This document shows, piece by piece, positions 29,984 to 62,171 of a stretch of DNA of 64,000 bases. A program made the position numbers and the translations under genes. A model generated the notes under the pieces. The model did not search any database and had not been told where the DNA came from. It saw only the letters and a list, made by a program, of their open reading frames with translations. Every line of letters begins with the position of its first letter. The stretch's first letter is position 1. This stretch comes from Gracilibacter sp. BRH_c7a (lineage in GTDB: Bacteria; Bacillota; Desulfitobacteriia; Desulfitobacteriales; Syntrophobotulaceae): positions 1 through 64,000 of the forward strand of contig LOEZ01000053.1 in the NCBI GenBank assembly GCA_001516055.1, read 5' to 3'.

Positions 29984-29997
29984 TTTCCTCTCTCCTA

Positions 29998-36967: not shown

Positions 36968-36997
36968 TAATTATATATAATCGATTATATATAATTA
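36968..36997. promoter_or_regulatory. 30-bp perfect palindrome in the GntR/quinone oxidoreductase divergent promoter
   Basis: Bases 36968-36997 form a perfect inverted repeat centred on TCGA, containing ATAATCGATTAT (36977-36988). A partial second copy, TTCGATTGATTTAT, starts at 36998. The position, 22 bases upstream of the GntR start and in the divergent spacer, fits an operator for that regulator. Confidence 0.7.
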
Positions 36998-41220: not shown

Positions 41221-41269
41221 ATTGTTAAGATAATGAGTATCTATTCCAGAAGAATTAGGAGCAAGAACT

Positions 41270-41968: not shown

Positions 41969-41971
41969 ACA

Positions 41972-42682: not shown

Positions 42683-42740
42683 TGCTTACTCCATATTCTA
42701 TATAAAATATAAATCAACATATTATGAGAAACTGAAGATA

Positions 42741-42787
42741 AACAAAAGTGACCGTCTCAATAATTTGAGACGGTCCCCTTTTGTTAA
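42741..42787. terminator. Bidirectional terminator between tupC and the moeA-PBP gene
   Basis: A perfect 11-bp stem (42750-42760 with 42765-42775, loop TAAT) is extended by AACAAAAG on the left and CTTTTGTT on the right. It can stop both converging transcripts. Confidence 0.9.
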
Positions 42788-42798
42788 ATGCAATTGCA

Positions 42799-44712: not shown

Positions 44713-44723
44713 CTCTATCCTCC

Positions 44724-45965
44724 TCAGCGTAGCATCTTAACCTTTATTCGTTTCCCTGCTTCTAATCCTTCGTTATCCAAACTAACATGGATTAGGCCAT
44801 CTGCTTCCACTATAGTACTAATTAATCCGGACTTACCTCGCAACGGTTCCAGAAGATAATCACTATCTTTTGGGGTAATCCTGACATGTAAAAACTCTTC
44901 TCGCCCACTGCCTGAATAGATATTCTGGGTAAGAATTCCCTCTGGCAAAGGTATATTCAATCTACCTTGGGTTGTATCATCCAGCAAAGGACGGATAAGA
45001 TTGTCAAAGACAATCATCGCTGAGGCCGGATGTCCAGGCAAGCCAAAAATCACCTTTCCTTGAGTTACACCAGCTATCGTGGGTTTACCCGGCCTTAGTG
45101 CAAGACCATGAAATAAGAGCCCCGGTTCACCCGCCTCTTGGATCAAACCTGCAGTTAAATCTCTTGTCCCCACCGAACTTCCACCCGATAGTATGATAAT
45201 ATCATTTTCTGAAATCATCTTTTGCAGGCACTCTCGTAATTCCTTTTCATCATCTCTTACGATACCATAATATTTAACATTACAACCACAGGCTATAGCC
45301 TGTCCCATAAGCGTATATCCGTTAATATCTCTCGTTTGGGCTTGATCTGGACTAATTTCCGGGGATACGATTTCATCCCCCGTTGAAAGAATCCCAATAT
45401 TCCAGCGAACTAGCACCGAAACTTTAACCATTCCTTGAGCAGCTAATAACCCCATCTCCTGAGCCCTGATTGTGAAGAAACGGGGAATGAATACCTTTCC
45501 GGCCGCGATATCTTCACCTATATCAATAAGATTCTCTCCAGGAGCCACAGGTTGGGTAACCCCGTAAAGGGAGTCTCCAAAATCTTCTATATGTTCAATC
45601 ATAACCACGGCATCTGAGCCTTCCGGAAGCATACCACCGGTAGGAATAAGCATACCTTCCCCTTTCCCTAGATGTTTAGAAGGTGTTCTACCCATTGATA
45701 TTTCCTCTTTATTAATGAAGAATGCCGGCAGACTCTCACTTGCTCCGAAAGTATCTTGAGAACGAACAGCCAATCCATCAACAGTGGATTTCCGGAAATG
45801 AGGCAAATCCCAACGAGCCAAAATATCGCAAGCAGCCTTACGACCCCATGACTCTTCCAAGGGCACTTCTTCCTGACGTTCGTAGTAAGGCAGCATATAA
45901 GGTCTTAATATATCCTTTGCTTCTGCAAGGGTAAGAACTTTGAAAAGCTCCTTTCTATATTGCAC
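44724..45965 (-). CDS. moeA: Molybdopterin molybdotransferase MoeA, second copy
   Basis: A 413-residue stand-alone MoeA. It has the motifs STVDGLAVRSQDT near residue 60, STGDEIVSPE near 190, GGSSVGTRDLT near 262 and GKPTIAGVTQGKVIFGLPGH near 298. In organisms that use both metals, paired MoeA proteins may separate molybdenum from tungsten insertion; this is an inference here. The start is GTG at 45965, with GGGAG about eight bases upstream. It lies between the MoeB-like gene and the fused moeA. Confidence 0.93.
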   Translation of the reverse strand: MQYRKELFKVLTLAEAKDILRPYMLPYYERQEEVPLEESWGRKAACDILARWDLPHFRKSTVDGLAVRSQDTFGASESLPAFFINKEEISMGRTPSKHLGKGEGMLIPTGGMLPEGSDAVVMIEHIEDFGDSLYGVTQPVAPGENLIDIGEDIAAGKVFIPRFFTIRAQEMGLLAAQGMVKVSVLVRWNIGILSTGDEIVSPEISPDQAQTRDINGYTLMGQAIACGCNVKYYGIVRDDEKELRECLQKMISENDIIILSGGSSVGTRDLTAGLIQEAGEPGLLFHGLALRPGKPTIAGVTQGKVIFGLPGHPASAMIVFDNLIRPLLDDTTQGRLNIPLPEGILTQNIYSGSGREEFLHVRITPKDSDYLLEPLRGKSGLISTIVEADGLIHVSLDNEGLEAGKRIKVKMLR

Positions 45966-46094
45966 CTCATTTTCTCCCTTCTATCAGATTTGATTCAATC
46001 TTATTCTCTTATCACTATCTTTCATTATTAGCTTACTTATCATTTTACTTACTTATCGTTGCCCACTAACTCAGTTGTTTTCTTTTAAAAAACA

Positions 46095-46790
46095 CTATTC
46101 AATTTTATAGAAATCCATATTCAACAAGTCAATATAAAGAAAACGATGGCCCAAAGCAGGAGAACGACCGATTAGGATTTTCACAGCTTCAGCTACGGCT
46201 AGACTGGCTATTACAGCTGGAGCAAAGGCTGGATTTCCTAGTTGCTCTTCAACCCCTCTTTCTTTTTTGAAAAGCTTTGGGGCAATGAAATCCCCTGGGA
46301 AGCTAATCCCTAACATTCCGTACCATCCACCAATTCCAGTCAATACCAATGGCGTATTTAAGCCATGACAAACTCTCTCTAATCCAACCCTTGTTTGACC
46401 ATTATCTAAAGCATCACAGACCAGGGCAGCATTTTTTAATAAAGATGCTCCCGTTTCTTCAGTAAACCATTGGGCATGGGTATCTACCTTTATTGATGAA
46501 TTAATCTTAAGCAATCTGTTTTGGGCTGCTTCTACTTTAAGAACACCTAGGTTTTCTTCAAGTGCGAACAATTGACGGTTTAAATTACTTTCTTCAATTC
46601 TATCACCATCTATTAAGATAAGATGTCCGACTCCCAGGCGTGCAAACTCTTCGGCTAGATAACCGCCGATGCCCCCACAGCCAATAATTGCTACGGTTGA
46701 AGATTCTAATTTCAGCTGTTCTTCAAGAGTAAGTGACTTAAAATTACGCTTGTAACGCCCACCTTGCAGCTCGTTTGCCAACACCATCAA
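46095..46790 (-). CDS. ThiF/MoeB/HesA-family E1-like adenylyltransferase
   Basis: A 231-residue E1-like enzyme that adenylates the C-terminal glycine of a small ubiquitin-like sulfur carrier. The nucleotide motif VAIIGCGGIGGYLAEEFARLG is near residue 32 and DGDRIEESNLNRQLF near 60. The two CxxC zinc pairs of E. coli MoeB are missing, as in several HesA-type relatives. Its likely partner is the MoaD-like protein at 56714-56992, or one outside the window. It is divergent from the first aldehyde:ferredoxin oxidoreductase gene, with a shared 281-base promoter region. Confidence 0.88.
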   Translation of the reverse strand: MMVLANELQGGRYKRNFKSLTLEEQLKLESSTVAIIGCGGIGGYLAEEFARLGVGHLILIDGDRIEESNLNRQLFALEENLGVLKVEAAQNRLLKINSSIKVDTHAQWFTEETGASLLKNAALVCDALDNGQTRVGLERVCHGLNTPLVLTGIGGWYGMLGISFPGDFIAPKLFKKERGVEEQLGNPAFAPAVIASLAVAEAVKILIGRSPALGHRFLYIDLLNMDFYKIE

Positions 46791-47071: not shown

Positions 47072-48781
47072 ATGAAATACTTTTTAAGAGTAAACTTAAC
47101 AGAAAAAAGTATAATCAAGGAAGATGTTCCTGAGAAATACCAGCTGTATGGTGGGCGCTTATTAACATCTTCATTAATCAATGATGAAGTAGATCCCTTA
47201 TGTGACCCCATAGGTCCCGATAATAAATTGGTTCTAGCTGCAGGTCTACTAGGAGGGGTTAATATTGCCGGCTCTGGACGTCTTTCAGCTGGAGCCAAAA
47301 GTCCTTTGACTGGAGGTATTAAAGAGAGTAATGCCGGAGGAACTTTCGCACGAAGGATGTCAAATCATGGACTTAGAGCAATTATTCTCGAGGGAAAAAG
47401 CACGGAACAGAACTTAGTTCTAGAGATTCGTAAGGATGGCATTACACTTAACAATTATCCTGACCTTAAAATGAAAGGCGTTTACGATTGTACTCTAATA
47501 TTACAGAAGCAATACGGTACAGATTGGGGAATATGTTTAATTGGTCCAGCTGGTGAAATGAGATTAGCGTCAGCCTGTATCAATAATGTAGATACCAAAG
47601 GGATTCCTAGCAGAGTGAACGGCCGGGGTGGGTTAGGCTCGGTAATGGGCTCCAAAGGGCTTAAAGCGATTGTAGTTGAACCTTCTCCAGGTACTCCTTC
47701 CCAAGCTAAAAAACAAAAGGAAATTAAAGAAGTTATAAAAGAATTCACTGAAATAATTCAGAAACATCCAATGACACCCATCTATCAAAGGTACGGCACA
47801 ATACTGATGACGCAGCATGCATTGAGATTGGGTTCCATGCCTTGTTATAACTTCCGCCAAGGTTCTATGCCCAATACTGAACATCTAAAGGCTGAGAATC
47901 TGACAAAAGTTATAGAAGACCGTGGTGGAGAAGGTACACCGACTCATGGTTGTATTCCTGGATGTATCATGAAATGCTCGAACATCTATCCCGATAAAGA
48001 TGGTAAATCTTTGGTTGCCCCTCTGGAATATGAGAACTTGATTATGTTGGGGCCAAACATCGGCATCACAGATGTGGATCAGATTGCAGCCTTAAATTAC
48101 ATAGCAAATGACTTAGGTGTAGATACCATTGAGATTGGGGCAGCTTTAGGTGTTGCGATGGATTGTGGTGTTTTGAACTTTAACGATTATGAACAAGCTC
48201 GTTCAGCTATGGAAGGCATCTATCAAGGGACTGTTTTAGGCCGTCTCTTAGGCCAAGGTGCCTATATGACGGGAAAAATTCTTGGAGCTACCCGAATTCC
48301 CGTGGTGAAAGGACAGAGCATGGCGGCTTATGATCCAAGAACCTTTAAAGGTATAGGGGTGACATATGCTACTTCTCCTATGGGAGCTGATCATACCGCA
48401 GGACATACCCTACGCTTCCCTGTTGACCATCATCAAGCAGAGGGACAGATAGAGGCCTCTCTTAATGCTCAGAAAGACATAAACGTCTATGACTCCTTGG
48501 GATTATGTAATTTTACTCTTCCTCAGACCATAGCCAAACCCGAAGTTCTGGCAGCTCTAGTTTCCAACTACTACGACGTTGATTTTGATACTTCAGACTT
48601 AAGGAATATAGGAACTGAAGTTATCCGGACGGAATATACCTTTAATCGCAGAGCAGGTTTCACAAACAACGATGATTGTCTACCGGATTTTATGCTAAAT
48701 GAACCTCTCCCACCGACAAATAAGGTATTTGATGTAAATTTAGCAGGTATGAAGAATATTTATAAAGATATCCTTAAATAA
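47072..48781 (+). CDS. Aldehyde:ferredoxin oxidoreductase family tungstoenzyme, variant cysteine spacing
   Basis: A 569-residue AOR-family protein expected to bind a tungsten bis-pterin and one [4Fe-4S] cluster. The N-terminal domain has GPDNKLVLAAGLLGG and the pterin-binding SPLTGGIKESNAGG run near residues 50-90. The cluster cysteines read C-x3-C-x3-C (HGCIPGCIMKCSN near 293) rather than the C-x2-C-x3-C of Pyrococcus AOR; the fourth is in LGLCNF near 478. This suggests a distinct AOR subfamily with an unknown substrate. It is a single gene beside the tungsten cofactor genes, with its own promoter and terminator and no adjacent ferredoxin. Confidence 0.9.
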   Translation: MKYFLRVNLTEKSIIKEDVPEKYQLYGGRLLTSSLINDEVDPLCDPIGPDNKLVLAAGLLGGVNIAGSGRLSAGAKSPLTGGIKESNAGGTFARRMSNHGLRAIILEGKSTEQNLVLEIRKDGITLNNYPDLKMKGVYDCTLILQKQYGTDWGICLIGPAGEMRLASACINNVDTKGIPSRVNGRGGLGSVMGSKGLKAIVVEPSPGTPSQAKKQKEIKEVIKEFTEIIQKHPMTPIYQRYGTILMTQHALRLGSMPCYNFRQGSMPNTEHLKAENLTKVIEDRGGEGTPTHGCIPGCIMKCSNIYPDKDGKSLVAPLEYENLIMLGPNIGITDVDQIAALNYIANDLGVDTIEIGAALGVAMDCGVLNFNDYEQARSAMEGIYQGTVLGRLLGQGAYMTGKILGATRIPVVKGQSMAAYDPRTFKGIGVTYATSPMGADHTAGHTLRFPVDHHQAEGQIEASLNAQKDINVYDSLGLCNFTLPQTIAKPEVLAALVSNYYDVDFDTSDLRNIGTEVIRTEYTFNRRAGFTNNDDCLPDFMLNEPLPPTNKVFDVNLAGMKNIYKDILK

Positions 48782-48872: not shown

Positions 48873-50603
48873 TTATAAGTAAGGTTTAGCTCCGAATCTA
48901 AACATTCCCAATGTGTTCCCTCTTGTGATTGGAAGCAGTAAGTTCGAGGGATAATCTTCATTATGGTATATCGTAATTCTATTTGCCTTTTGACTACGGA
49001 TATGGCCAACACCTATTCCCTCCATAGAATGCTTAGGCGGGTCATCCGTACAACTAATTTTCAACTTAAGTTTGCATCCTGCCCTAAATAAATTACCTGT
49101 TGGTACAATCTCAATTTTAAACTCATAAATCTCACCGGCAACTAATTTTTCTTCTTTCACATGGGACAGTATGGGCTGCCAAGGTTTAGATTCCTTCAGA
49201 TTCAGTATCCGATGAGACCCCTTTAGCCATCCTCTTGTTATGAGCTTTTCCTTCCCCTCAGGATCTACTACCCACAAACTGGTAAACCATAAGATATCCG
49301 TATCTGTTGCCGAGGCATAAAGCGTTACCTGAACAGGACCTACAACTTCAGTATTTTCTACAAAACTTGGAGTATAAAATTCCAAATCGCCTCTTCCCCA
49401 AGGAGAGTCTTCAAACGATGAGTACCCTTCATTTACACGGTACTCATGCTCAAATAGAAGATTATTCTCATGTAAATAAAACGGAGTCCATTTTGTTTGG
49501 GGAAGCGGCCAATCATCGACTTCTTTGAATTCATCTGTTCCATTAATCCATAACTTGATCGGGGTTTCTTCCATAATGCCATTGTCTATCCCCTTCATCC
49601 AATAATCAAACCACCGAAGGGATTCATACTGCAATTGATAGAGTGGACGATCCAGATAGGCGGCTGGACCTATGATCATCTTTTTAGGAGTCTTCAACTT
49701 TTCCCAACTTCTAAACGCTCCCGGTAAATGGAGGCCTATATGACCCCAACAACCACCGATGTAGGCTGGCACTTTCACTTTATCATAGTCCACTTTCCTC
49801 TGCTGCCAAAAATCATTATCTAAAGGATTTAAAAGAAAATCTACCAATAAGGGGTTACTCCCAACATCCGGGTTTTTCAAGGCATCGACAAGTTCAGGAC
49901 AAGCTAGGATATCCTCATCTTGAAGCAACTCCTGAATCGCTTCCTGATATTTGTCTTTGGCCCAATTCGTTTTACAATACCCCTCCATCCTGGGCTTACT
50001 TAACTCGGTTAAAGACCAGTTACGCCAGAACTTATACGCAAGTACTCCTCCATGGTAAACTCCATCCCGATAAAGATCGGTAGAAGCCCAGGGACCAAAA
50101 AGACACTTTAAATGAGGTGGATTGGTTGAAGCTACATATTGTTGAATCCAAGCAAAATATGAAACACCAAACATGGCCACCTGACCATCACACCAGGACT
50201 GAACCGCTATCCATTCAATCACATCATAACCATCCTGTAGCTCTTGAGGCCCAATGAATGTATATTTCCCCTCAGATTTACCGGTTCCTCGAATATTGAC
50301 TAGAACGTGCACGTAGCCTCGTCGAACATAAAAATTAGAATCTCCTGCTTCAATTGAAGCATTAGCCTTTTCCTGATTCGGATGTTTAAAAACAACCGAG
50401 GAAAAACTATCAGTATGGATGGGTGCAGACTGCATATCTAAGTTATAAGGAAAATAACCTAAAATTGCAGGGAATCTTTCTTCACTTTTGGGGCGAATGA
50501 CATCTGCATTTAAAATTGTTCCGTCGCGCATTGGTATCTTTACATCTCTTTCAACTAGAACATCGTATCTCCTCTCAGATGTCTGCCAATTACGACCAAT
50601 CAT
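48873..50603 (-). CDS. CocE/NonD family alpha/beta hydrolase (X-Pro dipeptidyl-peptidase S15 type)
   Basis: A 576-residue serine hydrolase. The N-terminal alpha/beta-hydrolase domain carries the nucleophile motif GVSYFA near residue 147, as in cocaine esterase and X-prolyl dipeptidyl-peptidase. The C-terminal jelly-roll domain (PSFVENTEVVGPVQVTLYAS near 409) is typical of the family. It probably cleaves an ester or amide; there is no signal peptide, so it is cytoplasmic. It is the last gene of a nitroreductase-transporter-hydrolase unit. Confidence 0.87.
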   Translation of the reverse strand: MIGRNWQTSERRYDVLVERDVKIPMRDGTILNADVIRPKSEERFPAILGYFPYNLDMQSAPIHTDSFSSVVFKHPNQEKANASIEAGDSNFYVRRGYVHVLVNIRGTGKSEGKYTFIGPQELQDGYDVIEWIAVQSWCDGQVAMFGVSYFAWIQQYVASTNPPHLKCLFGPWASTDLYRDGVYHGGVLAYKFWRNWSLTELSKPRMEGYCKTNWAKDKYQEAIQELLQDEDILACPELVDALKNPDVGSNPLLVDFLLNPLDNDFWQQRKVDYDKVKVPAYIGGCWGHIGLHLPGAFRSWEKLKTPKKMIIGPAAYLDRPLYQLQYESLRWFDYWMKGIDNGIMEETPIKLWINGTDEFKEVDDWPLPQTKWTPFYLHENNLLFEHEYRVNEGYSSFEDSPWGRGDLEFYTPSFVENTEVVGPVQVTLYASATDTDILWFTSLWVVDPEGKEKLITRGWLKGSHRILNLKESKPWQPILSHVKEEKLVAGEIYEFKIEIVPTGNLFRAGCKLKLKISCTDDPPKHSMEGIGVGHIRSQKANRITIYHNEDYPSNLLLPITRGNTLGMFRFGAKPYL

Positions 50604-50683: not shown

Positions 50684-51901
50684 TCAAGCTGAAATATTCT
50701 CTGGTGGCTGATTTCCAAGTTGGTTGGCCGCTTTTGCATCTTTCGCCTTAAGCTGCCGAATCACAAATAATACAATCATGGTTTGGGTAAATCCATAGAG
50801 TGCTGCTGCGGTTGCTGCTAATGGTCCAAAATATTTAAAGGCTAAAGCAGAGGTAATTGAAACATTTTCAATCGCGATCTCAAACAAGCCTGCACGTTTT
50901 TGAGCTTCATTGAACTTGAAAATTTTTTCCGGAGCATAGTAACCAATCGTACAGCCAATCCCTGCGTGTAGAACATGTGCTAACAGTAACACAGGAACAA
51001 TATAGAGATTTGCTAGTAGTGCGGACCAACCGCCACTAAAAGCTCCTAAAAAGAGTGGGAACATGACAATAACGGATACTGCACTAAACGCTGGGCCATA
51101 ATCTTTTACTTTATTTTTTAAGAAGGCTGTGGAGATTCCAACACCAATCAAGAGAGGAACAATCACGCTTTTAATTAGGTCAATCATCATTTGTGCTACC
51201 GGTACATCAACCAAAGTTCCAATTAACAAGTTAGCAGCTGAAGGCTGAATCAAAGGACTAGATATAGTACTAAGCGCTGTAGTTAACACGGATAGTGGAG
51301 CATCACCAGCTACTAAAAAAGTATAAACATTAGATGCACCACCGGTAGCTGTTGTTCCGATTAATACTTGAGCTGCAATCAACTGAGAGGCAATCTCTGA
51401 ATCGGCAATAAGATTGCCGTAAATAAGTAGAGCAAGAACTAAAGCGACTAGCGGCATACAAATCCAACGTACTGCCCACAGTTGGAAAACAGGAATTGGT
51501 CTTTTTAATATCCGCTTCCATTCATCAAGTGGAATCGCCATACCCATAACTAACAAAGATAATGATACAAATGTCATCTGCTTTTTCGGCAGCCCAATTG
51601 CCAAGCCGGTGGGATAGAAGTTAGCCGCTGTCAGAAAAGCACTGAGTAAAAACATGGGTGTATAATCAGAAATGTACGTACATACTTTGACCCATTGCTT
51701 CGTTCCTTCGGGGTATTGTTTTTTTAATAAGAATCCCCTATATAAACAGTACCAACCTACAAACCAGCTAATTAACCATAAAACTGTGATTGCAGGATAC
51801 TTTTCGACGGGCATTCCTTGCCCTTTGGAAATAGCAAATGGAACAATAAATCCTAATACATAAAACAAAACACCCAGATTACGCCATGTCTTAGCAGTCA
51901 T
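50684..51901 (-). CDS. Bile acid:sodium symporter (BASS) family transporter
   Basis: A 405-residue membrane protein with about eleven to twelve helices. The core has the BASS signatures VLIGTTATGGASNVYTFLA near residue 183 and TTALSTISSPLIQP near 210. About 90 residues with three helices precede the core, longer than in typical bacterial ASBT proteins. BASS proteins move organic anions with sodium. Its place between a nitroreductase and a hydrolase suggests transport of a carboxylated substrate or product. Confidence 0.85.
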   Translation of the reverse strand: MTAKTWRNLGVLFYVLGFIVPFAISKGQGMPVEKYPAITVLWLISWFVGWYCLYRGFLLKKQYPEGTKQWVKVCTYISDYTPMFLLSAFLTAANFYPTGLAIGLPKKQMTFVSLSLLVMGMAIPLDEWKRILKRPIPVFQLWAVRWICMPLVALVLALLIYGNLIADSEIASQLIAAQVLIGTTATGGASNVYTFLVAGDAPLSVLTTALSTISSPLIQPSAANLLIGTLVDVPVAQMMIDLIKSVIVPLLIGVGISTAFLKNKVKDYGPAFSAVSVIVMFPLFLGAFSGGWSALLANLYIVPVLLLAHVLHAGIGCTIGYYAPEKIFKFNEAQKRAGLFEIAIENVSITSALAFKYFGPLAATAAALYGFTQTMIVLFVIRQLKAKDAKAANQLGNQPPENISA

Positions 51902-52077: not shown

Positions 52078-52668
52078 CTAATATTCGCCAGGTACCTTTT
52101 CGTAAAACACTATGCCGTCCAAAGGTTTCCGACTCATCTTCGGAACATGAATGGAATATCCAAATGCCATAATGCCTGCCAGATTCCAAGCCAATGGTAC
52201 ATTTAACAGAACTTTTACCTTTTCTGTCAGCCAGTGACAATAGCAACCTACCTGTAGATCCATTTCTGTTGCTGCTAGCCACATGTGTTCCATCGTTATG
52301 GCTGCACCCATCATATCCACTGCATAATTCTGAGTGTTTGGCGGTACTTCAGTAGGAATCGTCAAGACCGCGATTAATAATTCAGGCTGGATAAGGTCGT
52401 TAACCTCACCCCATACTCCTCCATCACGAAATCTTGGTTCCCAATATCCCGAGATTTGTTTGGCCTCAGCTGCCAGCTCTTGAAGTTGCTTTTTTGTTTC
52501 CTGATCACGAATCACCACATACCTAACAGGCTGCATATTTCCGGCAGTCGGAGCCCATCTTGCTGCTTCCAGCAATTCATTCTCCATCTCTTTACTAATC
52601 GGAGGCCCTTCCTTACCTCCAAATTTGTGGACAGCATGTCTATTCATATACAGTTGTTTGAAACTCAC
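52078..52668 (-). CDS. Nitroreductase family protein (FMN)
   Basis: A 196-residue FMN enzyme of the nitroreductase fold. The N-terminal FMN phosphate motif NRHAVHKFGG is near residue 9 and ARWAPTAGNMQPVRYVVI near 35. The C-terminal half has MGAAITMEHMWLAATEMDL. Family members reduce nitro groups, quinones, flavins or remove halogen (iodotyrosine deiodinase), so the reaction is open. It is the first gene of the unit with the BASS transporter and CocE-like hydrolase and has an operator-like palindrome 110 bases upstream. Confidence 0.87.
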   Translation of the reverse strand: MSFKQLYMNRHAVHKFGGKEGPPISKEMENELLEAARWAPTAGNMQPVRYVVIRDQETKKQLQELAAEAKQISGYWEPRFRDGGVWGEVNDLIQPELLIAVLTIPTEVPPNTQNYAVDMMGAAITMEHMWLAATEMDLQVGCYCHWLTEKVKVLLNVPLAWNLAGIMAFGYSIHVPKMSRKPLDGIVFYEKVPGEY

Positions 52669-52777: not shown

Positions 52778-52797
52778 AATAAACGATAATCGATTAT
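52778..52797. promoter_or_regulatory. Putative GntR operator upstream of the nitroreductase unit
   Basis: AATAAACGAT (52778-52787) overlaps the perfect 12-bp palindrome ATAATCGATTAT (52786-52797). It is the clearest single copy of the shared motif, lying in the 183-base spacer between the NCS2 permease stop codon and the nitroreductase start. Confidence 0.65.
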
Positions 52798-52851
52798 GCA
52801 AAAAGGTTTCAGTCTATTAATTATATTCCTTAGATAGTTAGCTAATTTCTA

Positions 52852-54204
52852 CTACTTGGTTACAAATTTCCTTTTGGGCAGGATTACATGTTCTAACAGG
52901 ATACAAATGAGCATTCCTGTAACTAGCCCATTCCCTAAGACATAGCGCAGAATAATCGGAGCTTCTACCCAAATCTCCTGAGGTATTGACATCAAACCAG
53001 TGCCTAGAATAACAGATATTCCAATCACAAAACTATCACGGTGATCCATGGCTAAGGTACCATAATCTTTTAATCCCACTGCAAGCAATTGGCAAAAAGC
53101 CACAAGGAAAACTGCATACCCAACAGACGGTGGAATTGCTGCGATTAGATAGCCTATAGCCGGAATCACCCCGATAATCATCATAAACACGGAATAGATG
53201 ATGAATGGGATTCTCGAGGCTACTCCCGACAAGCCTATCAAACCACTAGAAGCGGCATAAGGAACTGTTGCAACACCTGCACCTGCTCCAGTAATGAAAA
53301 TTACTAAGCCATTAATCCAGGTTCCTCGATCATAATCTTTATTATTCATGATCGCTCCTGTCATTTTACTAACGGCAGCGATACTCACAACAATATTGGT
53401 AGTTAGAATCAACCCCACACAAACACAGGTGCTGATTACTCCCCAATTAATGGTTGGGTAACCCCAAGCAAAAATCTTGGGCAAGGCAAAGACTTCTATA
53501 CCAGACCAGGAAATTGGTTCACTGTAACCCAGGATCCAATATACAAACCACCCTACTAAAAGCCCAATAAATACACCAATTGTACGCCAGATTCCTCTAC
53601 CACGTAGCGTCACAAAGATAATCGTCATGATAACTATTACAGCGATAGATGGAGCAATTATACTCAATTGATTACCCGTAGCAATCCCCAGCATTCCTTT
53701 CACAAAGGTTCCGCTTAATTGTATCGTTAACAAGACCATAACTGTTCCAGTAATAGCTGGAGTAAAAAGCTTCACTGCTTTACCAATTAGCCCTGTTAAA
53801 CCAATCAACCCAATTATGACTCCAGTTATCATCAATCCTGTTTGGAGATCAGAACGCAAAAGGTTTAAAGAATTACCCATGCTTACAGCCATAGCAGCTA
53901 GGCTAATGTAAGTTGCCCAGAAAACACTAGCTGGTCCTTCTATAATTGGAAGTCTGTGACCGAATAATACCTGAAGCAAGGATCCTAAACCTGTAAAGAA
54001 AAATATTCGCAGAGCCAGATGTGCCGTTCCTTGGGTACCTAGACCCAAGCTTGCTCCTAATATTACGGGTATTACGGCACTTTGAGCTAATGAAAAGCTT
54101 AACCACTGTAACCCATAGAGAAAGCTTCGGGATAGTCCAGGATAATCATTTAAGTCATATACTAGATCATTTGCTTTCTGAAGCTGTATTTCAGATCCTT
54201 TCAA
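52852..54204 (-). CDS. NCS2-family nucleobase:cation symporter-like permease
   Basis: A 450-residue permease with about fourteen membrane helices of the NCS2 (uracil/xanthine/ascorbate) family. The N-terminal QSAVIPVILGASLGL region near residue 40 and the PYAASSGLIGLSGVASRIPF region near 320 match family signatures, but substrate-defining residues cannot be assigned to a known base. It ends the operon that begins with the nitrilase gene and starts 31 bases after the RdhA-like gene. It may import a heterocyclic compound. Confidence 0.85.
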   Translation of the reverse strand: MKGSEIQLQKANDLVYDLNDYPGLSRSFLYGLQWLSFSLAQSAVIPVILGASLGLGTQGTAHLALRIFFFTGLGSLLQVLFGHRLPIIEGPASVFWATYISLAAMAVSMGNSLNLLRSDLQTGLMITGVIIGLIGLTGLIGKAVKLFTPAITGTVMVLLTIQLSGTFVKGMLGIATGNQLSIIAPSIAVIVIMTIIFVTLRGRGIWRTIGVFIGLLVGWFVYWILGYSEPISWSGIEVFALPKIFAWGYPTINWGVISTCVCVGLILTTNIVVSIAAVSKMTGAIMNNKDYDRGTWINGLVIFITGAGAGVATVPYAASSGLIGLSGVASRIPFIIYSVFMMIIGVIPAIGYLIAAIPPSVGYAVFLVAFCQLLAVGLKDYGTLAMDHRDSFVIGISVILGTGLMSIPQEIWVEAPIILRYVLGNGLVTGMLICILLEHVILPKRKFVTK

Positions 54205-54235
54205 ATTCAGACCTCTTCCTCAGCAATATTTTAAG

Positions 54236-55495
54236 CTAGTTATTCTTCCCTTTCTTTTGCCAGAATCTTTTATTACTCATGCTTTTACCATAACCTAACA
54301 AATCATCTAACTTGATCCAGATTCGATTCAGGAAAGGGAGATTTAAGGCAGTCCAACGGGGGACTTCGTGAATGATTGAATTCACCTTATTAAAGGGGCA
54401 GTTAGAGATACAAAGTCCACAGTTTGTTCCTGTACTCGCCCAATATGCTCTGCATTTATCATGCTTCAAATTCCATTGGCATACACCAGCGTTGCTGTAA
54501 TCTCCTTGAGGCTCATAATTTGGCCCATTAGTGGGGATCGCTTTGGGAGGACAGGTATCTGCGCATTTTTTACAAACGAGACAAAATTCCTTAACCCCAA
54601 AGGTTATGGGCTGATCAGGAATAAGTGGCATATCTGTAATCACCTTAGAAATTCTGGCTCGGGGCCCGTACCAGGGGGTGATTAACTTTGCATTGCGGCC
54701 AAGTTCACCTAAGCCAGCATCAATCGCTAAAGGAATATTCGCTGCAGTATCATTGGAACTGGGGATAGCGTTATAACCTAAAGCACGGATACATTCAGCC
54801 AAACTAATAGCACTATAGGCAATACGAGAGTATGCCAATCTGGTTGCAGCCACTTCAGTCAAGGTTGGGCCGGTATTTATCCCATCATAATCCATCTCAT
54901 GAATCATTACGATTACATATTTCATTTCTTTAGGGATAACACGCGTGTTATCCGGCATCTTTGTCGGAATCTTAATATCTTCATAACCAGGTTCATCGGA
55001 GAATCTAATCGGGTAGGAAGTCTTGGTTTCAGAATCAAACCAACTGGAATATACCCACCTGCGATCCAAGTTTGCAACTCCGACTTTATCTGCTCCATAA
55101 TCAAGAGCAGCAGCTTTTGCAGTCAGGGTTATTTCTTCCGGACTGGCTTCCCATTTAGTTTCCAGCGTGAAAGGTCCATTGGTTAAGGGTGCCCAAGAAT
55201 TCCCTGATTGATCAGGATCATGCATAGGAAAATTAGTAACGTTTAAAATACTTGCCGCTCCAATGTTGTAGGCATAGTCACGAATGGAAAATCCTTCCTT
55301 GCCCTCGGTAATATATTTACGACGATTTGGAATGAATTTTTTCTCTAAGTGCTCATAATCAGGATTCCACTTAGGCTGGAGTGCCATATGCATCTGCTGT
55401 GGAAATCGGGTGTAATCTTCTTTTACATCATAGATTTCCGCTGCTGTTTTATTCATTTTTTTCACTGCATTCAGGAAACCGTATTTAGGGGCCAT
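54236..55495 (-). CDS. Reductive dehalogenase (RdhA)-like iron-sulfur protein, no Tat signal
   Basis: An RdhA-family protein of about 419 residues. The C-terminal half has the core pattern of the cobalamin-binding domain (LGYNAIPSSNDTAANIPLA near residue 220, DAGLGELGRNAKLITP near 240). Two [4Fe-4S] motifs follow: CLVCKKCADTCP near 298 and CGLCISNCPF near 358, the latter with an upstream Cys in CRAYWASTGT. The ATG at 55495 is set by GGGAGGT just upstream; an open frame to 55711 overlaps the hydrolase gene and is rejected. There is no twin-arginine leader and no RdhB anchor gene nearby, so the protein should be cytoplasmic. The substrate is unknown. Confidence 0.85.
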   Translation of the reverse strand: MAPKYGFLNAVKKMNKTAAEIYDVKEDYTRFPQQMHMALQPKWNPDYEHLEKKFIPNRRKYITEGKEGFSIRDYAYNIGAASILNVTNFPMHDPDQSGNSWAPLTNGPFTLETKWEASPEEITLTAKAAALDYGADKVGVANLDRRWVYSSWFDSETKTSYPIRFSDEPGYEDIKIPTKMPDNTRVIPKEMKYVIVMIHEMDYDGINTGPTLTEVAATRLAYSRIAYSAISLAECIRALGYNAIPSSNDTAANIPLAIDAGLGELGRNAKLITPWYGPRARISKVITDMPLIPDQPITFGVKEFCLVCKKCADTCPPKAIPTNGPNYEPQGDYSNAGVCQWNLKHDKCRAYWASTGTNCGLCISNCPFNKVNSIIHEVPRWTALNLPFLNRIWIKLDDLLGYGKSMSNKRFWQKKGKNN

Positions 55496-55574
55496 CTTCT
55501 TTACCTCCCATTCACTAAAAGACTTATTCCATAAAAAAAGTATGTATCTTGCCACTATCTCTTTTATTTTGAGA

Positions 55575-56630
55575 TTAAAGCTTGTTTGCAAGCCAATCAC
55601 TAGCATAGGGTCGGTACATATACGGTAAATTGTTACATACATGGTTGCCTTCATCGAGCAAGAGTAATTCCTTCGGCCCTGAAGCTTGTTCATAAATCTT
55701 ATACGCTTCATCTAAGGCAATGACACGATCCAATTTTCCGTGAACTACCAAAAGAGGACATTTAATGTTGGAAGCCATTCCTTCTAAAGTCAGCTTCTTG
55801 GCCAAAATTTCTGCCTCAGCATCGTCCTTAGCTCCCGAGCGTACTTGAAAAGCCTGCCTCGTTAACGGAGGTTCATCTTGCCAGTGAGCACCGAAACAGA
55901 ATGGACCTGCTAGTTCAACAACTGCTTTAATTCTTTTATCTGCAGCAGCCCCACGGCAGACATAGTACCCTCCAAGGCTGACACCCATTAGCCCTACGCG
56001 GGAAGCATTTACTTCTACCGTTGTTTCTAAAAAGTCAATTACTGCAGTAATCACTTTTTCATAGTCAGCTCGAATGTTTTGGGTAAATTCTGTTTCTCCT
56101 TGGCCAGGTCCATCAAATACCACCGTAGCTAAGCCCCGATCGAGGAGTACTTCCGCGATATTGTGCATTTCTTCCTTTGTGCTATCTAAACCACAGACGA
56201 TAATCACCACAGCAGGCTTCACAACTTCCTTTGGCAGACGTAAGTAGCCTGGAAGAAGTGATTTCTCAAAAGATATTTGAATCTCGGTTCCCAATGGAGA
56301 GAATAAGGGCATAGCCTGTCGATAACATGATGCAGCTTTTTCACTGCCAAGCACTAGTTTTTTGCGATCATGGACGAAGAGGTATTTGCCAAAATGAAAA
56401 TTCATAGAGGCCTGAAATAAATGCGTTGCAGCACTGCGATAGCGCTTCTGCTCTAAGGCTGACTTGGCTAACTCTTCATGCTTTATTCCCATCTCATAAA
56501 AGCCATCGAACCATTGATCCCACGTTTCTAATTTATCTGTGATCTTACGAAAATCATTTAAGTCAATTCCATTAGCGACGAAACGAGGAGCCCAGTTGTT
56601 AATGGCGGATTGAACACGTGCATCCTTCAA
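55575..56630 (-). CDS. Alpha/beta hydrolase, FrsA/2,6-dihydroxypseudooxynicotine hydrolase-like
   Basis: A 351-residue serine hydrolase. The nucleophile motif GVSLGG is near residue 214, an Asp near 300 (VVHGKLDRVI) and a His near 330 (EGNHVCNN) complete the triad. The first 130 residues form a helical cap (FDGFYEMGIKHEELAKSALE) as in FrsA and in dihydroxypseudooxynicotine hydrolase, which breaks a carbon-carbon bond in nicotine catabolism. In this operon, cleavage of an ester or of a ring-derived diketone is plausible. Confidence 0.85.
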   Translation of the reverse strand: MKDARVQSAINNWAPRFVANGIDLNDFRKITDKLETWDQWFDGFYEMGIKHEELAKSALEQKRYRSAATHLFQASMNFHFGKYLFVHDRKKLVLGSEKAASCYRQAMPLFSPLGTEIQISFEKSLLPGYLRLPKEVVKPAVVIIVCGLDSTKEEMHNIAEVLLDRGLATVVFDGPGQGETEFTQNIRADYEKVITAVIDFLETTVEVNASRVGLMGVSLGGYYVCRGAAADKRIKAVVELAGPFCFGAHWQDEPPLTRQAFQVRSGAKDDAEAEILAKKLTLEGMASNIKCPLLVVHGKLDRVIALDEAYKIYEQASGPKELLLLDEGNHVCNNLPYMYRPYASDWLANKL

Positions 56631-56713
56631 AATAAAACCTCCTTAATATACTCATGACCATCATTTGTTGCTTTGCAGATCTGTATTTAAAGCTAGATTA
56701 TTTCAGGATTTGG

Positions 56714-56992
56714 CTAACCACCATAGATTGGTGGTAATATCATGAGCTCAGTGTTTGTACGAAGTACATAGTCAAATTCCACTATTCTACCATTTACAAT
56801 GAAGCTGACATAAGGTGTCACTCCATCGTCTTGTAAAAGACGTTTTCTTGCTTTTTCGCCGTAGATCTCTACCATGAGATTAATTAGATCTGTAATTGTG
56901 GAATTGGCAGCCAAAATAAAGTCATCTGTTGGTTTTCCTTTTTCCAATCCCTCTGGTGCGATCCACTCTACTTTTACTGTAATTGTTTTCAA
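56714..56992 (-). CDS. MoaD/ThiS-family sulfur carrier protein
   Basis: A 92-residue ubiquitin-like protein ending in the required Gly-Gly (MILPPIYGG). Hydrophobic strands around VEWIAPEG, LINLMVEIYG and YVSFIVNGR fit the beta-grasp fold. After activation by an E1-like enzyme it would donate sulfur to the pterin of the tungsten cofactor. It is placed between the AOR-linked ferredoxin and the alpha/beta hydrolase; aldehyde oxidoreductase operons commonly carry such a carrier. Confidence 0.88.
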   Translation of the reverse strand: MKTITVKVEWIAPEGLEKGKPTDDFILAANSTITDLINLMVEIYGEKARKRLLQDDGVTPYVSFIVNGRIVEFDYVLRTNTELMILPPIYGG

Positions 56993-57013
56993 GCCACTTC
57001 ACCTGCCATATTG

Positions 57014-57421
57014 TTAAACGATAGAAATCAGCTGTAAGGGACAGACCTTTACACATTGAGGATCACCATTGCAAACATCACATTTTACCGGTGGCAAGCC
57101 ATCTCCAGGATTATTGATTCCGGAAAACTTACAAGCAGAAACGCACTTATATTCTCCTTGACAAGTGTCACAAAGCTCAGAATTAAGAATGACTCGGCCA
57201 TCTTCCACTCGATTCAAAGCCTTTACCGGACAAGCTTCAACACAATAAGCCTGAACACACTGGCTGCAATAGTTTATCTTGACTGTTAGGGAATCTGGCA
57301 TCTGGGGATTAATCTTTATGGCCGAATGCTTCAAATTTATTATTCCAGTATTCTTAAAGGAACAAGCGATGGTACAAAGGTTACAGATAGTACAGTCTCT
57401 GGCTTGAAACTTTAATCTCAT
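57014..57421 (-). CDS. Polyferredoxin partner of the second AOR (four [4Fe-4S] motifs)
   Basis: A 135-residue iron-sulfur protein with four clusters of cysteines: CTICNLCTIAC near residue 10, CSQCVQAYCVEACP near 52, CDTCQGEYKCVSAC near 83 and CDVCNGDPQCVKVCP near 115. The arrangement is like the HycB/DmsB electron-transfer subunits. It overlaps the AOR gene by four bases, so it is almost certainly its electron acceptor. Confidence 0.92.
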   Translation of the reverse strand: MRLKFQARDCTICNLCTIACSFKNTGIINLKHSAIKINPQMPDSLTVKINYCSQCVQAYCVEACPVKALNRVEDGRVILNSELCDTCQGEYKCVSACKFSGINNPGDGLPPVKCDVCNGDPQCVKVCPLQLISIV

Positions 57422-59244
57422 CTGAGTCCACCTCCTTGAATCCCTAGTTCATCTAGTTTGGACTCCGTAGGTAAACCATTATCGGTCCAACCTCTTACTT
57501 GATAATAATCTGAGAGCATCTCTTGGAACTTCTCAGGATCAAGCACTTGCCCTGCGGCCCGTCCTCGCTTTAATGGATCCTTAAAGAAACGACCGGGCAG
57601 AATATCATCCTTACGGCTAATACCACAGAGCGTATTAAATAACCGGCTCTGATTAATAGCACGTTCCCCAACACGCATTGATTCTGCTTCATCCATATCC
57701 CAGCCCGTGGCTAGATTTAGCATTTCTGTATATTCCTTTACCTTTAATGGATAAACCGCGGCCATGAAATCACATATGATTAAGGAGTGATAAAAACCAC
57801 GCGTATCTTCAAGCTCTTTCACTAAGCTTCCTTTGCCCTTATAGCTGAAACGAAACTCATCATCATCCTGTTCCTTATAAACTGGTCGGGCTCTGCGATG
57901 ACAACCACCCCGATCTGCAACCGCATAAGCAAGAGCGTAACCTGTTGTTCCTCTTGGGTCATAACCGGGAATCTCCATGTTCTTAACCTGAATAGCCCTA
58001 TCCAGATCAAGCCTCATCTCTTCACTGAACTTCTTTGAACCCTCAGCCAGAAGATCTCCAATGCCCTCTCGGTATGCAATAGACTTAAAGGCTTGTGCCA
58101 GTCCCTCGACATTGCCCCACCCAAGAGCAAATCCAAGGTCTCTTTCGCTGATATCTCCTCGAACAAAGGCTTCATTAGCGCAAGCAAGCGTTACTCCGCC
58201 ACTTACTGTATCGATGCCCAAATCATCACAAAGCCAGTTTAAATATAAGGTACCTTCGGCGTTTAGGTCGTTGTTCGTACCGACAAGTGACATTGTTTCG
58301 TATTCTGGCCCTCCAACCAAGTAAGTTAAACCCTTGTATGGGACACTTGAACCTTTGCCACAGGGAACAGGACAGCTAAAGCAGGCTAAATTGCGCTTAA
58401 CATAATTGCTTTTAATGTAGTTACGATTTAAATCCGCTTCGTATTGATCACTGATTCCATCTGTATGGTTTTTCACAGATACTATCCCGAGTTTTTGCGT
58501 TAAGTCTAGGGTGCTCAATGTTCCATACTGACCACGGAAAAGTGCTTTTTGGTCTGTGCGGCATTGGTTCACCATATCTAAGCTTTTACCAATTAACTCA
58601 GTAGGATTATAAAAAGGAACTACCCCTTCACCCGCTAAGATCATGGCCTTGAGATTTTTATCACCAAATAATGCTCCTACTCCGCCTCGACCGAACTGAT
58701 GATAAAAATCTGCATGTACATTCGCATACTTGACTTTGTTTTCACCTGCAGGTCCGATTACTGCAACAGAACACTGTGTGCCATATTCTTGACGCAACTC
58801 AGATTCTGCTTCAAAACAACCTTTCCCCCAAAGGTGTTCAGCACTTTTTATTTCAACTTTCTTTTCGCTAATCACAAGATAGACTGGCTTCGCACTTTTC
58901 CCCATGATAATAAGACCATCATAACCTGAGGCTTTCAATCTGAATGCTACCGAACCACCACAGGTAGAATCGAGGTACACCCCTGTTAAGGGGGATTTAC
59001 AATAGAAAGAAGCTTTTGCCGCACCTGGTACGTTAGAACCGGTTAGTGAACCTGTCAGAAGAATAATAGGATTGCTTGGGGAAAATGGATCTTCCTTATA
59101 GGTTTCATAATCTAACAATAGTCGGCTGCCTAAGCACTTACCACCGACGTGCTTTCGCCAGTAATCTTCTGGCAGACTAATAATCTCAGTAGTTTTTTGA
59201 GATAAGTCAATAACCAATATTTTATTAAAATAACCATAGCTCAT
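57418..59244 (-). CDS. aor: Aldehyde:ferredoxin oxidoreductase (tungsten), second copy
   Basis: A 608-residue AOR with the standard C-x2-C-x3-C cluster motif (CFSCPVPC near residue 286) and a fourth cysteine in LIICDF near 492. The pterin-binding regions GPAGENKVKYANVHADF near 165 and the GYDPRGTTGYAL run near 420 are conserved. It converts an aldehyde to the acid with ferredoxin as acceptor, or the reverse. The ferredoxin and the MoaD-like carrier are encoded directly downstream; the nitrilase and binding protein are upstream. Confidence 0.93.
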   Translation of the reverse strand: MSYGYFNKILVIDLSQKTTEIISLPEDYWRKHVGGKCLGSRLLLDYETYKEDPFSPSNPIILLTGSLTGSNVPGAAKASFYCKSPLTGVYLDSTCGGSVAFRLKASGYDGLIIMGKSAKPVYLVISEKKVEIKSAEHLWGKGCFEAESELRQEYGTQCSVAVIGPAGENKVKYANVHADFYHQFGRGGVGALFGDKNLKAMILAGEGVVPFYNPTELIGKSLDMVNQCRTDQKALFRGQYGTLSTLDLTQKLGIVSVKNHTDGISDQYEADLNRNYIKSNYVKRNLACFSCPVPCGKGSSVPYKGLTYLVGGPEYETMSLVGTNNDLNAEGTLYLNWLCDDLGIDTVSGGVTLACANEAFVRGDISERDLGFALGWGNVEGLAQAFKSIAYREGIGDLLAEGSKKFSEEMRLDLDRAIQVKNMEIPGYDPRGTTGYALAYAVADRGGCHRRARPVYKEQDDDEFRFSYKGKGSLVKELEDTRGFYHSLIICDFMAAVYPLKVKEYTEMLNLATGWDMDEAESMRVGERAINQSRLFNTLCGISRKDDILPGRFFKDPLKRGRAAGQVLDPEKFQEMLSDYYQVRGWTDNGLPTESKLDELGIQGGGLR

Positions 59245-59331
59245 AGTGTATGCCCTCCAATTATTCCACTCTTATGCTTAAAATCAAAATACGAGTAGAA
59301 TGAATAATTTTATTAGTTGAACCTCTGATAA

Positions 59332-60249
59332 TTAAAATTCTAAAGCATTTTTATAATACTTAAATTCACAATACTTAGATGGATCATTGAGAGATTGATC
59401 TATCTGTCCTGTACCAGCCATTACCTTCATCGCTTCTAGTACTCCTTTAAGGTTTATTTCACCACGAAGATTAAAGGTCTGGGATTGAAGATACCGATCA
59501 TAGGTCTTACCAGCAATCTCGGCATTGACTTTTAAATAATAGGTGAGTATTACCACTGCCTCATCCTTATTAGCAGGATCATGGAGCCAATCTGAAGCTC
59601 TTACGTAAGCTCGGATATAACGTTGTAACTTATCTGTATTCTGTTCTGCCCAACTTTTTTTGGCTGCTGCTACAGTCCCTTGATATTCTGGAACATAATC
59701 TAAATTACTACCTAACCGCCTCAACCCATTAGCCTCTGCGATTAAGTCTACTGGCCCGTCAAGCAAGGCCCCCGCAACAACTCCATCAAGAACTGCCTGA
59801 TATCGTTCTCCTGTTCCACCGATCTGGACTAATTCATAATCCCGTCCTTCAGTCAGACCATTTTCCTGCATCATACGTTTGAGCAAAAGAGCAAAACCGG
59901 TGGAAACACCATCCACACCAAGTTTCCTTCCCTGAAGATCAGCAAACTTCTGAATATCAGGACCTACAATCAGACTATAATTGGGCTTACTAATTCCTAA
60001 AAAAGCAAATAGATCAGATCCAGCTTCAACTGCACGGACAATATGATCAACAGCCTGATGGCCCACATCATAGATATCACCTGTCTTTAGGTCTTGCAGA
60101 TGTTTAACTGATGACCTAGTGAATACAACCTCTACATCCAGTTCTTCAGCCTCAAAATACTTTTTTTCTAATCCAATGTAAACTGGCCAATTACCGGCTG
60201 ATTCAGAAATAATTGCTACCTTAAACGCATCAAAAGTTTGAGCTTTCAC
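59332..60249 (-). CDS. NMT1/SsuA-like binding protein without signal peptide, copy 2
   Basis: A 305-residue protein highly similar along its whole length to the one at 15189-16124 (shared AIISESAGNWPVYIGL and GVSTGFALLLKRM). It has the type-II binding-protein fold, no signal peptide, no lipobox and no partner permease. The ATG at 60249 with AGGAGGTAG upstream is clear. It is in an operon with the nitrilase and the AOR. It may bind a pathway intermediate in the cytoplasm, or have become an enzyme, as THI5 did. Confidence 0.87.
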   Translation of the reverse strand: MKAQTFDAFKVAIISESAGNWPVYIGLEKKYFEAEELDVEVVFTRSSVKHLQDLKTGDIYDVGHQAVDHIVRAVEAGSDLFAFLGISKPNYSLIVGPDIQKFADLQGRKLGVDGVSTGFALLLKRMMQENGLTEGRDYELVQIGGTGERYQAVLDGVVAGALLDGPVDLIAEANGLRRLGSNLDYVPEYQGTVAAAKKSWAEQNTDKLQRYIRAYVRASDWLHDPANKDEAVVILTYYLKVNAEIAGKTYDRYLQSQTFNLRGEINLKGVLEAMKVMAGTGQIDQSLNDPSKYCEFKYYKNALEF

Positions 60250-60328
60250 TAAACTACCTCCTCATAAAATACTATTTATTTTCAGCTCCGCAAGCTCTAT
60301 GAATGTCTAATTAAACCAATACAACAAC

Positions 60329-61300
60329 CTAGAACTTAAATTTCTTAACTCGTTCATATTCTTGCTTGTAGCTTTCTAGATCTTTTTTATAATAGTCATA
60401 ATTAAAGGTTTGTTCGATTGGTTGTGCCAATAGTCCATATAGCTCAGGGCGCCTATCATAAACTTGCCCGGGCCGATTATAGAATAAGTCCTTTTCTGAA
60501 TTAGGTACACTATTAATCTCATCGTCAAAATATCGGTTACGTATTTCATCTATACGAGCCAGATCAAAATCAGCTACTAAAACCCCTGGAGAAGTTAAGG
60601 TCCCTAACTGGAATTCCGGACCGAACATTGCAGTACGTCCAAGACCGCCCATGCTCTCATGGTAAACCTGATTCATCACGACATATAGGGTGTTTTCGAT
60701 TGCCCTAGCCCTAGCTAGGCAATGCCAATTATCTCTTAGTCTTGTTCGAATTGGAGCGGGGGCTCCCCCACCTGGAGCAAGTATAATCTGTGCACCTTTT
60801 AACATGAGCATCCTAGGAACTTCGGGAGCCCAGATTTCCGAGCATATACAAAGGCCTAGTTTACCAATTTGAGTATCAATTACAAGCAGTTCATCCCCTG
60901 GCAAGATATGTTTTCTGCCACCCATAAACACTGCATTCAGAAGAGGATGTGTTGGATGTGTGCGTTTATAATTTGCTATAACCTTCCCTTCAGGTGAAAT
61001 CAATTTATGGCATAGATAAAAAGTATTGGGAATCTCCAGATTTTCTTCCAGACATCCCGCATACAAATAAACCTTTTTATCTTTCGCCTTTTCACATAAT
61101 ACTTGGAATGGATGCTCGCTCAACTTTCCTAAACTGTCCATTGGCCCACTATAAGGACCGGGATATCCCTCAGGAAAGCAAATCAATTGTGCTCCTTGTG
61201 CCGAAGCAACATCGATATATTTTAAAGCCAATTCGAGATTGCGGTATTCTTCGTCCCCATAAAATCCTAATGGTTGAACTGCGGCTATCCGTACCTTCAT
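60329..61300 (-). CDS. Nitrilase-superfamily carbon-nitrogen hydrolase
   Basis: A 323-residue nitrilase-fold enzyme. The catalytic Glu-Lys-Cys triad is in CFPEGYPG near residue 43, NYKRTHPTH near 124 and GLCICSEIW near 158. Conserved positions of the family are present, so it should cleave an amide, nitrile or carbamoyl group. It is the first gene of the AOR/RdhA-like operon and has a 29-bp palindrome 67-95 bases upstream. Confidence 0.88.
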   Translation of the reverse strand: MKVRIAAVQPLGFYGDEEYRNLELALKYIDVASAQGAQLICFPEGYPGPYSGPMDSLGKLSEHPFQVLCEKAKDKKVYLYAGCLEENLEIPNTFYLCHKLISPEGKVIANYKRTHPTHPLLNAVFMGGRKHILPGDELLVIDTQIGKLGLCICSEIWAPEVPRMLMLKGAQIILAPGGGAPAPIRTRLRDNWHCLARARAIENTLYVVMNQVYHESMGGLGRTAMFGPEFQLGTLTSPGVLVADFDLARIDEIRNRYFDDEINSVPNSEKDLFYNRPGQVYDRRPELYGLLAQPIEQTFNYDYYKKDLESYKQEYERVKKFKF

Positions 61301-61366: not shown

Positions 61367-61395
61367 TCTCAATAAACGATAATCGTTTATTGAGA
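61367..61395. promoter_or_regulatory. 29-bp perfect palindrome upstream of the nitrilase operon
   Basis: Two 14-base arms (61367-61380 and 61382-61395) around a central A, containing AATAAACGAT (61371-61380) and its complement. This is the best-conserved operator candidate in the window, about 70 bases before the nitrilase start. Confidence 0.75.
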
Positions 61396-61474: not shown

Positions 61475-61486
61475 ATAATCGATTAT
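61475..61486. promoter_or_regulatory. Second ATAATCGATTAT palindrome in the nitrilase/MarR spacer
   Basis: A perfect 12-bp copy of the motif found at 36977-36988 and 52786-52797. With the 29-bp palindrome it makes the 271-base spacer (61301-61571) a two-site regulatory region. Confidence 0.6.
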
Positions 61487-61571: not shown

Positions 61572-62171
61572 TTAATCTTCCTTTTTTTGAGCATCTGCGT
61601 TAAAAATAGCTCCTTCGGGATTTATACTATGTGCTGCCTTTTCCAGTAATCGAAGTAACTCATCAACTTCTGAATCAGATAGACCATCTAATTTCTCCAA
61701 AATAAAAAATCTATGATATTTTGCTACCTTGTCATGTAATCTTTTGCCTTTAGGAGTTATAGCAATATTACTAACCCTTCTGTCTTCTTCTAGAGGAACA
61801 CGTTCTACCAAATCAGCACGTTCCATCCTGTCAATTAAGGTTGTCAAGTTACTTTTGCCTCTAAAAAGCAGTTTGCTTATTTTCGTCATACTTACAGAGT
61901 CCAAATCATCAAGTATTCTTAGTACTTGGTATTGAGCTTGGGTGGAGCCGAGACTTGCTAAGTTCTTATCTGTTTCTGTAGTAATGTAATCATGACAGCG
62001 CCTTATCAGTTGATAGAGTTGTAGTTTAGGATGATCAAACGAGATATCAGGTTCCAATTTATCTTCAACCTCTTTTATGCTATTGATCTCTTTTTGTGCC
62101 TTAATCTTTTCCTTGGCTATCTTTGTAGTGACCCAACGCAGTTTAATTCTACTTCTTGTTCCTTCATTCAT
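61572..62171 (-). CDS. MarR-family transcriptional regulator
   Basis: A 199-residue winged-helix regulator. The HTH (SVSMTKISKLLFRGKSNLTTL, near residues 100-120, then IDRMERADLVERVP) and the wing DRRVSNIAITPKG are clear. It has an unusually long, basic and helical N-terminal extension of about 45 residues. It may repress the MFS transporter or metallo-beta-lactamase-fold gene encoded upstream or the nitrilase operon downstream. Confidence 0.88.
   Translation of the reverse strand: MNEGTRSRIKLRWVTTKIAKEKIKAQKEINSIKEVEDKLEPDISFDHPKLQLYQLIRRCHDYITTETDKNLASLGSTQAQYQVLRILDDLDSVSMTKISKLLFRGKSNLTTLIDRMERADLVERVPLEEDRRVSNIAITPKGKRLHDKVAKYHRFFILEKLDGLSDSEVDELLRLLEKAAHSINPEGAIFNADAQKKED

Follow-up and report, generated by a model that had tools for sequence, protein, structure and literature searches.

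The eight-gene operon at positions 52852–61300 of contig LOEZ01000053.1 (hereafter C53) of Gracilibacter sp. BRH_c7a raises the question of which process could bring together a nitrilase-superfamily protein, a tungsten oxidoreductase (WOR), an alpha/beta hydrolase, a reductive dehalogenase homolog (RdhA), and a purine/pyrimidine permease. We analyzed it within the first 64,000 nucleotides of this contig (the window), together with parts of the remaining genome and related genomes. On balance, we consider it probable that the operon specifies the cytoplasmic portion of an uncharacterized pathway by which a nitrogen-containing compound, probably an amide or a cyclic amide, is catabolized anaerobically. 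Each operon protein is a member of a known family; it is their combination around a class II WOR that is uncharacterized. In the open-access literature, we found no paper on such a cluster, its regulon, or a nitrilase with a Lys-to-Arg replacement.

The original prediction described eight co-directed genes with short gaps, and we recovered them in the same order and at the same coordinates, all on the minus strand. From the upstream end, they encode a nitrilase-superfamily C-N hydrolase (60329–61300), an NMT1/SsuA-type substrate-binding protein (59332–60249), the tungsten aldehyde oxidoreductase (AOR) large subunit WorL (57418–59244), the polyferredoxin subunit WorS (57014–57421), the MoaD/ThiS-like protein WorX (56714–56992), an alpha/beta hydrolase resembling 2,6-dihydroxypseudooxynicotine (DHPON) hydrolase (55575–56630), an RdhA lacking a twin-arginine translocation (Tat) motif (54236–55495), and a permease assigned to the NCS2 purine/pyrimidine family (52852–54204). 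From the nitrilase to the NCS2 gene, the intergenic gaps are 79, 87, -4, 21, 83, 79, and 31 bp, and a Shine-Dalgarno-like sequence is present ahead of all eight genes. The predicted family assignments also held: the RdhA score of 253.7 bits exceeds the TIGR02486 cut-off of 160.35, and among solved structures the hydrolase matches DHPON hydrolase best (2jbw, E 1.2e-44) and the AOR matches the Pyrococcus AOR best (1aor, E 2e-115).

Six of these genes, namely those for the nitrilase, binding protein, WorL, WorS, WorX, and hydrolase, are genuinely conserved as a unit. Across 398 genomes from the phylum, WorL relatives were found in G248 (65%), G190 (53%), and G449 (41%), and matches to the binding protein were found in its own genome, G248, and G190 only. 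The chance that the two non-own binding-protein genomes both fall among the three other WorL genomes is 3.8e-5. With the host's own second nitrilase as the query, close relatives were found in the same three genomes (its own, G248, and G190), with two more at 39%. In G190, the genes for the nitrilase, hydrolase, and binding protein are followed, after ~3 kb, by those for a truncated second binding protein, WorL, WorS, and WorX, all within ~9 kb. In G248, the cluster lies on contigs C39 and C70, which we read as continuous because both contain residues YSWVGEEENEEV of one cyclase-family gene. The order there is ABC permease, nitrilase, hydrolase, cyclase, two Zn dehydrogenases, E3, E1 alpha, E1 beta, E2, second AOR, binding protein, WorL, WorS, WorX, LacI-type gene, GlcD, and GlcF, and relatives of most of these genes occur in the window at 10–17, 28–33, 47, and 55–61 kb. 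In the more distant G419, genes for WorL, WorS, WorX, a CocE-type hydrolase, and the nitrilase stand in a row. The common three-genome distribution and the clustering place this gene order beyond chance. With the core together in two other genomes, the expectation of a conserved and uncharacterized catabolic gene set was borne out.

A shared operator also connects the operon to other units. At the operon head, between the MarR and nitrilase genes, a 29-bp perfect palindrome (TCTCAATAAACGATAATCGTTTATTGAGA, 61367–61395; motif core 61371–61391) lies 71 bp before the nitrilase start, and the same intergenic region contains a second operator core (ATAATCGATTAT, 61475–61486). A scan for TATAAACGATAATCGATTATT with up to two mismatches, which covered 1.79 of 4.1 Mb (all of C53 and C55 and parts of many other contigs), found six full copies, a list that may be incomplete. 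Three are in the window: the copy at 61371, one directly behind the operon (52778–52798; 110 bp before the start of a minus-strand nitroreductase gene at 52078–52668, the first of the next unit), and one at 36170–36190 (21 bp before a minus-strand gene for an M24 creatinase/prolidase-like protein, 34938–36149). The other three are at C53:89242 in a divergent region, at C53:93921 before a TRAP transporter, and before an operon on C55 that encodes a NitT-type ABC transporter and the second nitrilase. Three Markov-simulated sequences of the same length contained no matches with up to three mismatches; chance alone would be expected to produce none. Two further weak matches were dropped, both being inside coding sequence. 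These observations support a shared regulon that comprises the operator-bearing units, including the M24 gene. The copies at 61.4 and 52.8 kb bracket the operon and therefore support one transcription unit with those ends. Furthermore, the presence of the motif on both C53 and C55 makes it less likely that C53 is contamination from a foreign genome. A GntR/FCD protein (36310–36945, minus strand) is a candidate regulator because the 12-bp core ATAATCGATTAT (36977–36988) lies 32 bp before its start; the MarR protein (61572–62171, minus strand) is an alternative candidate. No copy of the operator turned up in the clusters of G190, G248, or G419. The possibility that relatives would show these genes scattered and independently regulated, which the original prediction had raised against itself, does not hold for six of the eight, given the clusters and the bracketing operators; the RdhA and NCS2 genes, by contrast, lie outside the core.

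At the center of the core, WorL has both the AFOR_N and AFOR_C domains. The residues involved in aldehyde oxidation in PfAOR are T243, E313, Y427, and H448 (PMC13328260), and the alignment places their equivalents in WorL at T242, E316, Y428, and H449. The cluster cysteines C288, C291, C295, and C491 are kept, WorS has 16 Cys (four [4Fe-4S] clusters), and WorX has Gly-Gly at the C-terminal end. Judged from these sequences, WorL, WorS, and WorX are a class II WOR by the criteria of PMC13328260. They resemble other class II WORs (WorLS, e.g., PfASOR and CbGOR; PMC13328260) in the AFOR domains, the tungstopterin residues, the four-cluster WorS, the presence of WorX, and a tungstate transporter nearby, but differ in having a cytosolic binding protein, a nitrilase-like protein, and a DHPON hydrolase-like protein as neighbors. 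Directly after the active-site His, WorL has Arg; this position is hydrophobic in four AOR-type relatives of solved structure (CHIKNY, CHIKGY, CHVRGY, and CHLRGY). The motif CHRRARP is common to the three closest WorL sequences, and CHRRAWP is found in G419. Because of this Arg, our guess is that the WorLS substrate may be anionic. Enzymes with a defined physiological role are known in only 5 of 92 tungsten-oxidoreductase clades (PMC13328260); the operon gives one uncharacterized WOR conserved partners, a common operator, and specific testable chemistry.

The nitrilase-superfamily protein contains the CN_hydrolase domain (PF00795). In the alignment, it keeps the Glu (E44) and Cys (C153) but lacks the catalytic Lys of the Glu-Lys-Cys enzymes, with R113 in that column. 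All six aligned members of this group (window, C55, G248, G190, G419, and G441) have Arg there, and two outside relatives and Nit2 have Lys. Since the catalytic Lys is replaced by Arg, a classical nitrilase function is unlikely for the window protein. Compared with Nit2, N-carbamoylputrescine amidase, and nitrilase, the group is alike in PF00795 and in the Glu and Cys; besides the Arg, it differs in a CSE motif and in adjoining WOR genes. The operon thus reveals a group within the nitrilase superfamily that lacks the catalytic lysine. No characterized pathway was found among the plasmid relatives of the nitrilase and the hydrolase. A third nitrilase-type gene in the host (C53:95664–96686, L039) keeps the Lys, has a CGEN motif, and is followed by a gene for a NitT-type binding protein.

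The gene between the nitrilase and AOR genes had been left without description in the original prediction and encodes the NMT1/SsuA-type binding protein. The binding proteins of this group have no signal peptide, because their reading frames start too near the domain; in the window, the stop-to-stop frame of 309 aa leaves no room for one. The operon also holds no ABC permease, the usual partner of an ABC-transporter substrate-binding protein (SBP). This is an exported type of protein kept in the cytoplasm. Its plasmid relatives (32%) are silent on its role, since they sit in other catabolic clusters and the two best read have signal peptides. A search of 395 genomes from the phylum to which L034 belongs (the record is named Desulfatiglandales) yielded distant relatives of the binding protein in one genome and no close ones; class-level searches around G190 and G248 covered 3 and 7 genomes. 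The window encodes a second cytosolic binding protein (78%; 15189–16163, minus strand), flanked by two Zn alcohol dehydrogenases (14116–15177 and 16187–17251) whose relatives (74–77%) adjoin the core in G248. The second binding protein gene of G190 (L070, 9017–9733) lies directly before WorL and lacks ~75 middle residues.

The hydrolase is similar to the DHPON hydrolase family over its full length and keeps the Ser-Asp-His triad. It is comparable to DHPON hydrolase of the Arthrobacter nicotine pathway (2jbw) in these two features and in an adjoining molybdenum-hydroxylase module, and differs in its distant sequence, its anaerobic host, and its position beside a tungsten enzyme. The module lies upstream on the same strand, beyond the window end. 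It is co-directed with the operon and encodes a three-subunit hydroxylase of the xanthine-dehydrogenase type, YqeB, YqeC, and XdhC-like maturation proteins, a second DHPON hydrolase-like protein, and a MarR protein 79% identical to that of the window. The stretch from C53:65036 to 72066 (L038, 1036–8066), which contains the hydroxylase, YqeB, YqeC, XdhC-like, and MocA-like genes, is typical of selenium-dependent molybdenum hydroxylases.

For the RdhA, the open reading frame (ORF) extends to 55711 and overlaps the hydrolase gene; the start with a ribosome site at 55495 gives a protein of 419 aa and a gap of 79 bp. The equivalents of PceA Y246, N272, and R305 (Y294, N320, and R353 in ORF numbering) and the Fe-S motifs are kept. 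These Tyr, Asn, and Arg residues of PceA are catalytic. Cytoplasmic catabolic reductive dehalogenases include NpRdhA and BhbA. Unlike a respiratory RdhA, the window protein has no twin-arginine motif, and no RdhB-like gene is in the operon; in the set compared, it and one G032 protein are among the few without this motif. Tat-less RdhAs have been described as cytoplasmic and catabolic (PMC6797604). The window RdhA resembles these enzymes (PMC6797604) in the absence of Tat and in the catalytic residues, but it is nearest to respiratory PceA-type enzymes and a Tat-less protein from the same order, has no fused reductase, and shares an operon with WorLS. The G032 protein (L072, 10425–11636; 46%) is its nearest relative and is encoded beside a Tat-bearing RdhA. 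A scan of named genomes found distant RdhA homologs only. The RdhA and NCS2 genes are absent from the G190 and G248 clusters (the rest of those genomes was not searched for them) and so look like local additions. The suggested halogenated or nucleobase-like substrate rested on these two accessory genes, seen here only, and loses its support because both are outside the conserved core. Other RdhA genes of the host carry Tat motifs (L041 10066–14629 on C74, L042, and L043), a gene for a membrane protein with an FMN-binding-like start adjoins the C74 pair, and the host may respire organohalides.

The sequences themselves establish the gene families, the retained active-site residues, the conservation of the six-gene core, and the common operator; the substrate, the order of steps, and the electron link to RdhA we infer as follows. 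The relatives would take up the substrate through a NitT-type ABC transporter, and the window host perhaps through NCS2. The non-canonical Glu-Arg-Cys nitrilase would then hydrolyze a C-N bond, and the DHPON hydrolase-like protein a C-C or ester bond. WorLS could next oxidize an aldehyde, perhaps one bearing a carboxylate, to yield reduced ferredoxin, with WorX helping cofactor synthesis. As a core member, the cytosolic binding protein could serve to hold the substrate or could itself be an enzyme with the SBP fold. RdhA, as a cytoplasmic dehalogenase of the catabolic type gained in the host lineage, could use ferredoxin reduced by WorLS and would be needed only for a halogenated variant of the substrate; WorLS would then illustrate how soluble reductive dehalogenases might be supplied with electrons. 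The fully specified version, a new pathway in which the Glu-Arg-Cys nitrilase and a binding-protein-fold enzyme prepare the WOR substrate and the resulting ferredoxin drives a soluble RdhA, we regard as doubtful. Several points weigh against the proposed pathway. Without the catalytic Lys, the nitrilase might not function as a hydrolase; structure prediction gave unusable models for the binding protein and nitrilase, with predicted local distance difference test (pLDDT) scores of 39 and 33 and shallow alignments; gaps of ~80 bp could hide internal promoters; and the conservation rests on a small sample, because the full core is found in two other genomes only.

Among the alternatives, an N-heterocyclic aromatic substrate is plausible from the gene families, although we consider the pathway built on it less likely than not. 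The molybdenum hydroxylase would hydroxylate the ring, the DHPON hydrolase-like proteins would cut an acyl-heteroaryl C-C bond in the manner of the nicotine pathway, and the nitrilase-like protein would open an amide. Such a route would account for the closest solved relative of the hydrolase, for the upstream module with its hydrolase paralog and 79% identical MarR protein, for the NCS2 permease, and for the occurrence, close to the core in relatives, of ring-amide hydrolases of the creatininase or cyclase family. However, the module has no operator copy in the sequence scanned, and relatives of the hydrolase also occur in plasmid clusters without a clear link to heterocycles. The G248 cluster, with its two Zn dehydrogenases and E3-E1-E2 genes between the hydrolase and WOR genes, would fit diol or alpha-ketol catabolism, in which the dehydrogenases would oxidize a diol, the acetoin-dehydrogenase-like E1/E2/E3 complex would cleave the ketol to acyl-CoA and an aldehyde for WorLS to oxidize, and the nitrilase and hydrolase would trim a nitrogen-bearing side chain. 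Relatives of those genes are found in the window at 14–17 and 28–33 kb, but the E1/E2/E3 genes are ~25 kb away from the operon with no strong operator ahead, and the G190 core cluster lacks this set; we judge this route unlikely as a whole. The region 25000–33421, which contains genes for acetoin-dehydrogenase-like E1/E2/E3, a CoA-acylating aldehyde dehydrogenase-like protein, and a succinyl-CoA-synthetase-like pair, resembles a ketol catabolic unit.

General aldehyde detoxification by the tungsten enzyme, with unrelated passengers as its neighbors, would agree with the aldehyde-oxidase residues of WorL and with the role assigned to several characterized WORs (PMC13328260). It is improbable in view of the three-genome distribution and clustering shared by the nitrilase, hydrolase, binding protein, and WOR, and of the operator in common with the second nitrilase-transporter operon. 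An operon devoted mainly to reductive dehalogenation, with WorLS donating the electrons, is very improbable. In its favor, the RdhA is Tat-less with its catalytic residues and Fe-S motifs intact, and the host has other, Tat-bearing RdhAs; against it, the G190 and G248 clusters yielded no RdhA.

Beyond the operon, the region 40339–46790 groups genes for a tungstate-type ABC transporter (TupA/TupB-like and ATPase; 40339–42682, plus strand), a MoeA with a C-terminal binding domain, a second MoeA, and a ThiF protein. This is a tungsten uptake and cofactor set beside a second AOR-family gene (47072–48781, plus strand), of which a relative (49%) adjoins the core in G248. Between this gene and the nitroreductase gene, the minus strand encodes a CocE/S15-type hydrolase (48873–50603), whose relative in G419 sits between WorX and the nitrilase, and a BASS-type sodium symporter (50684–51901).

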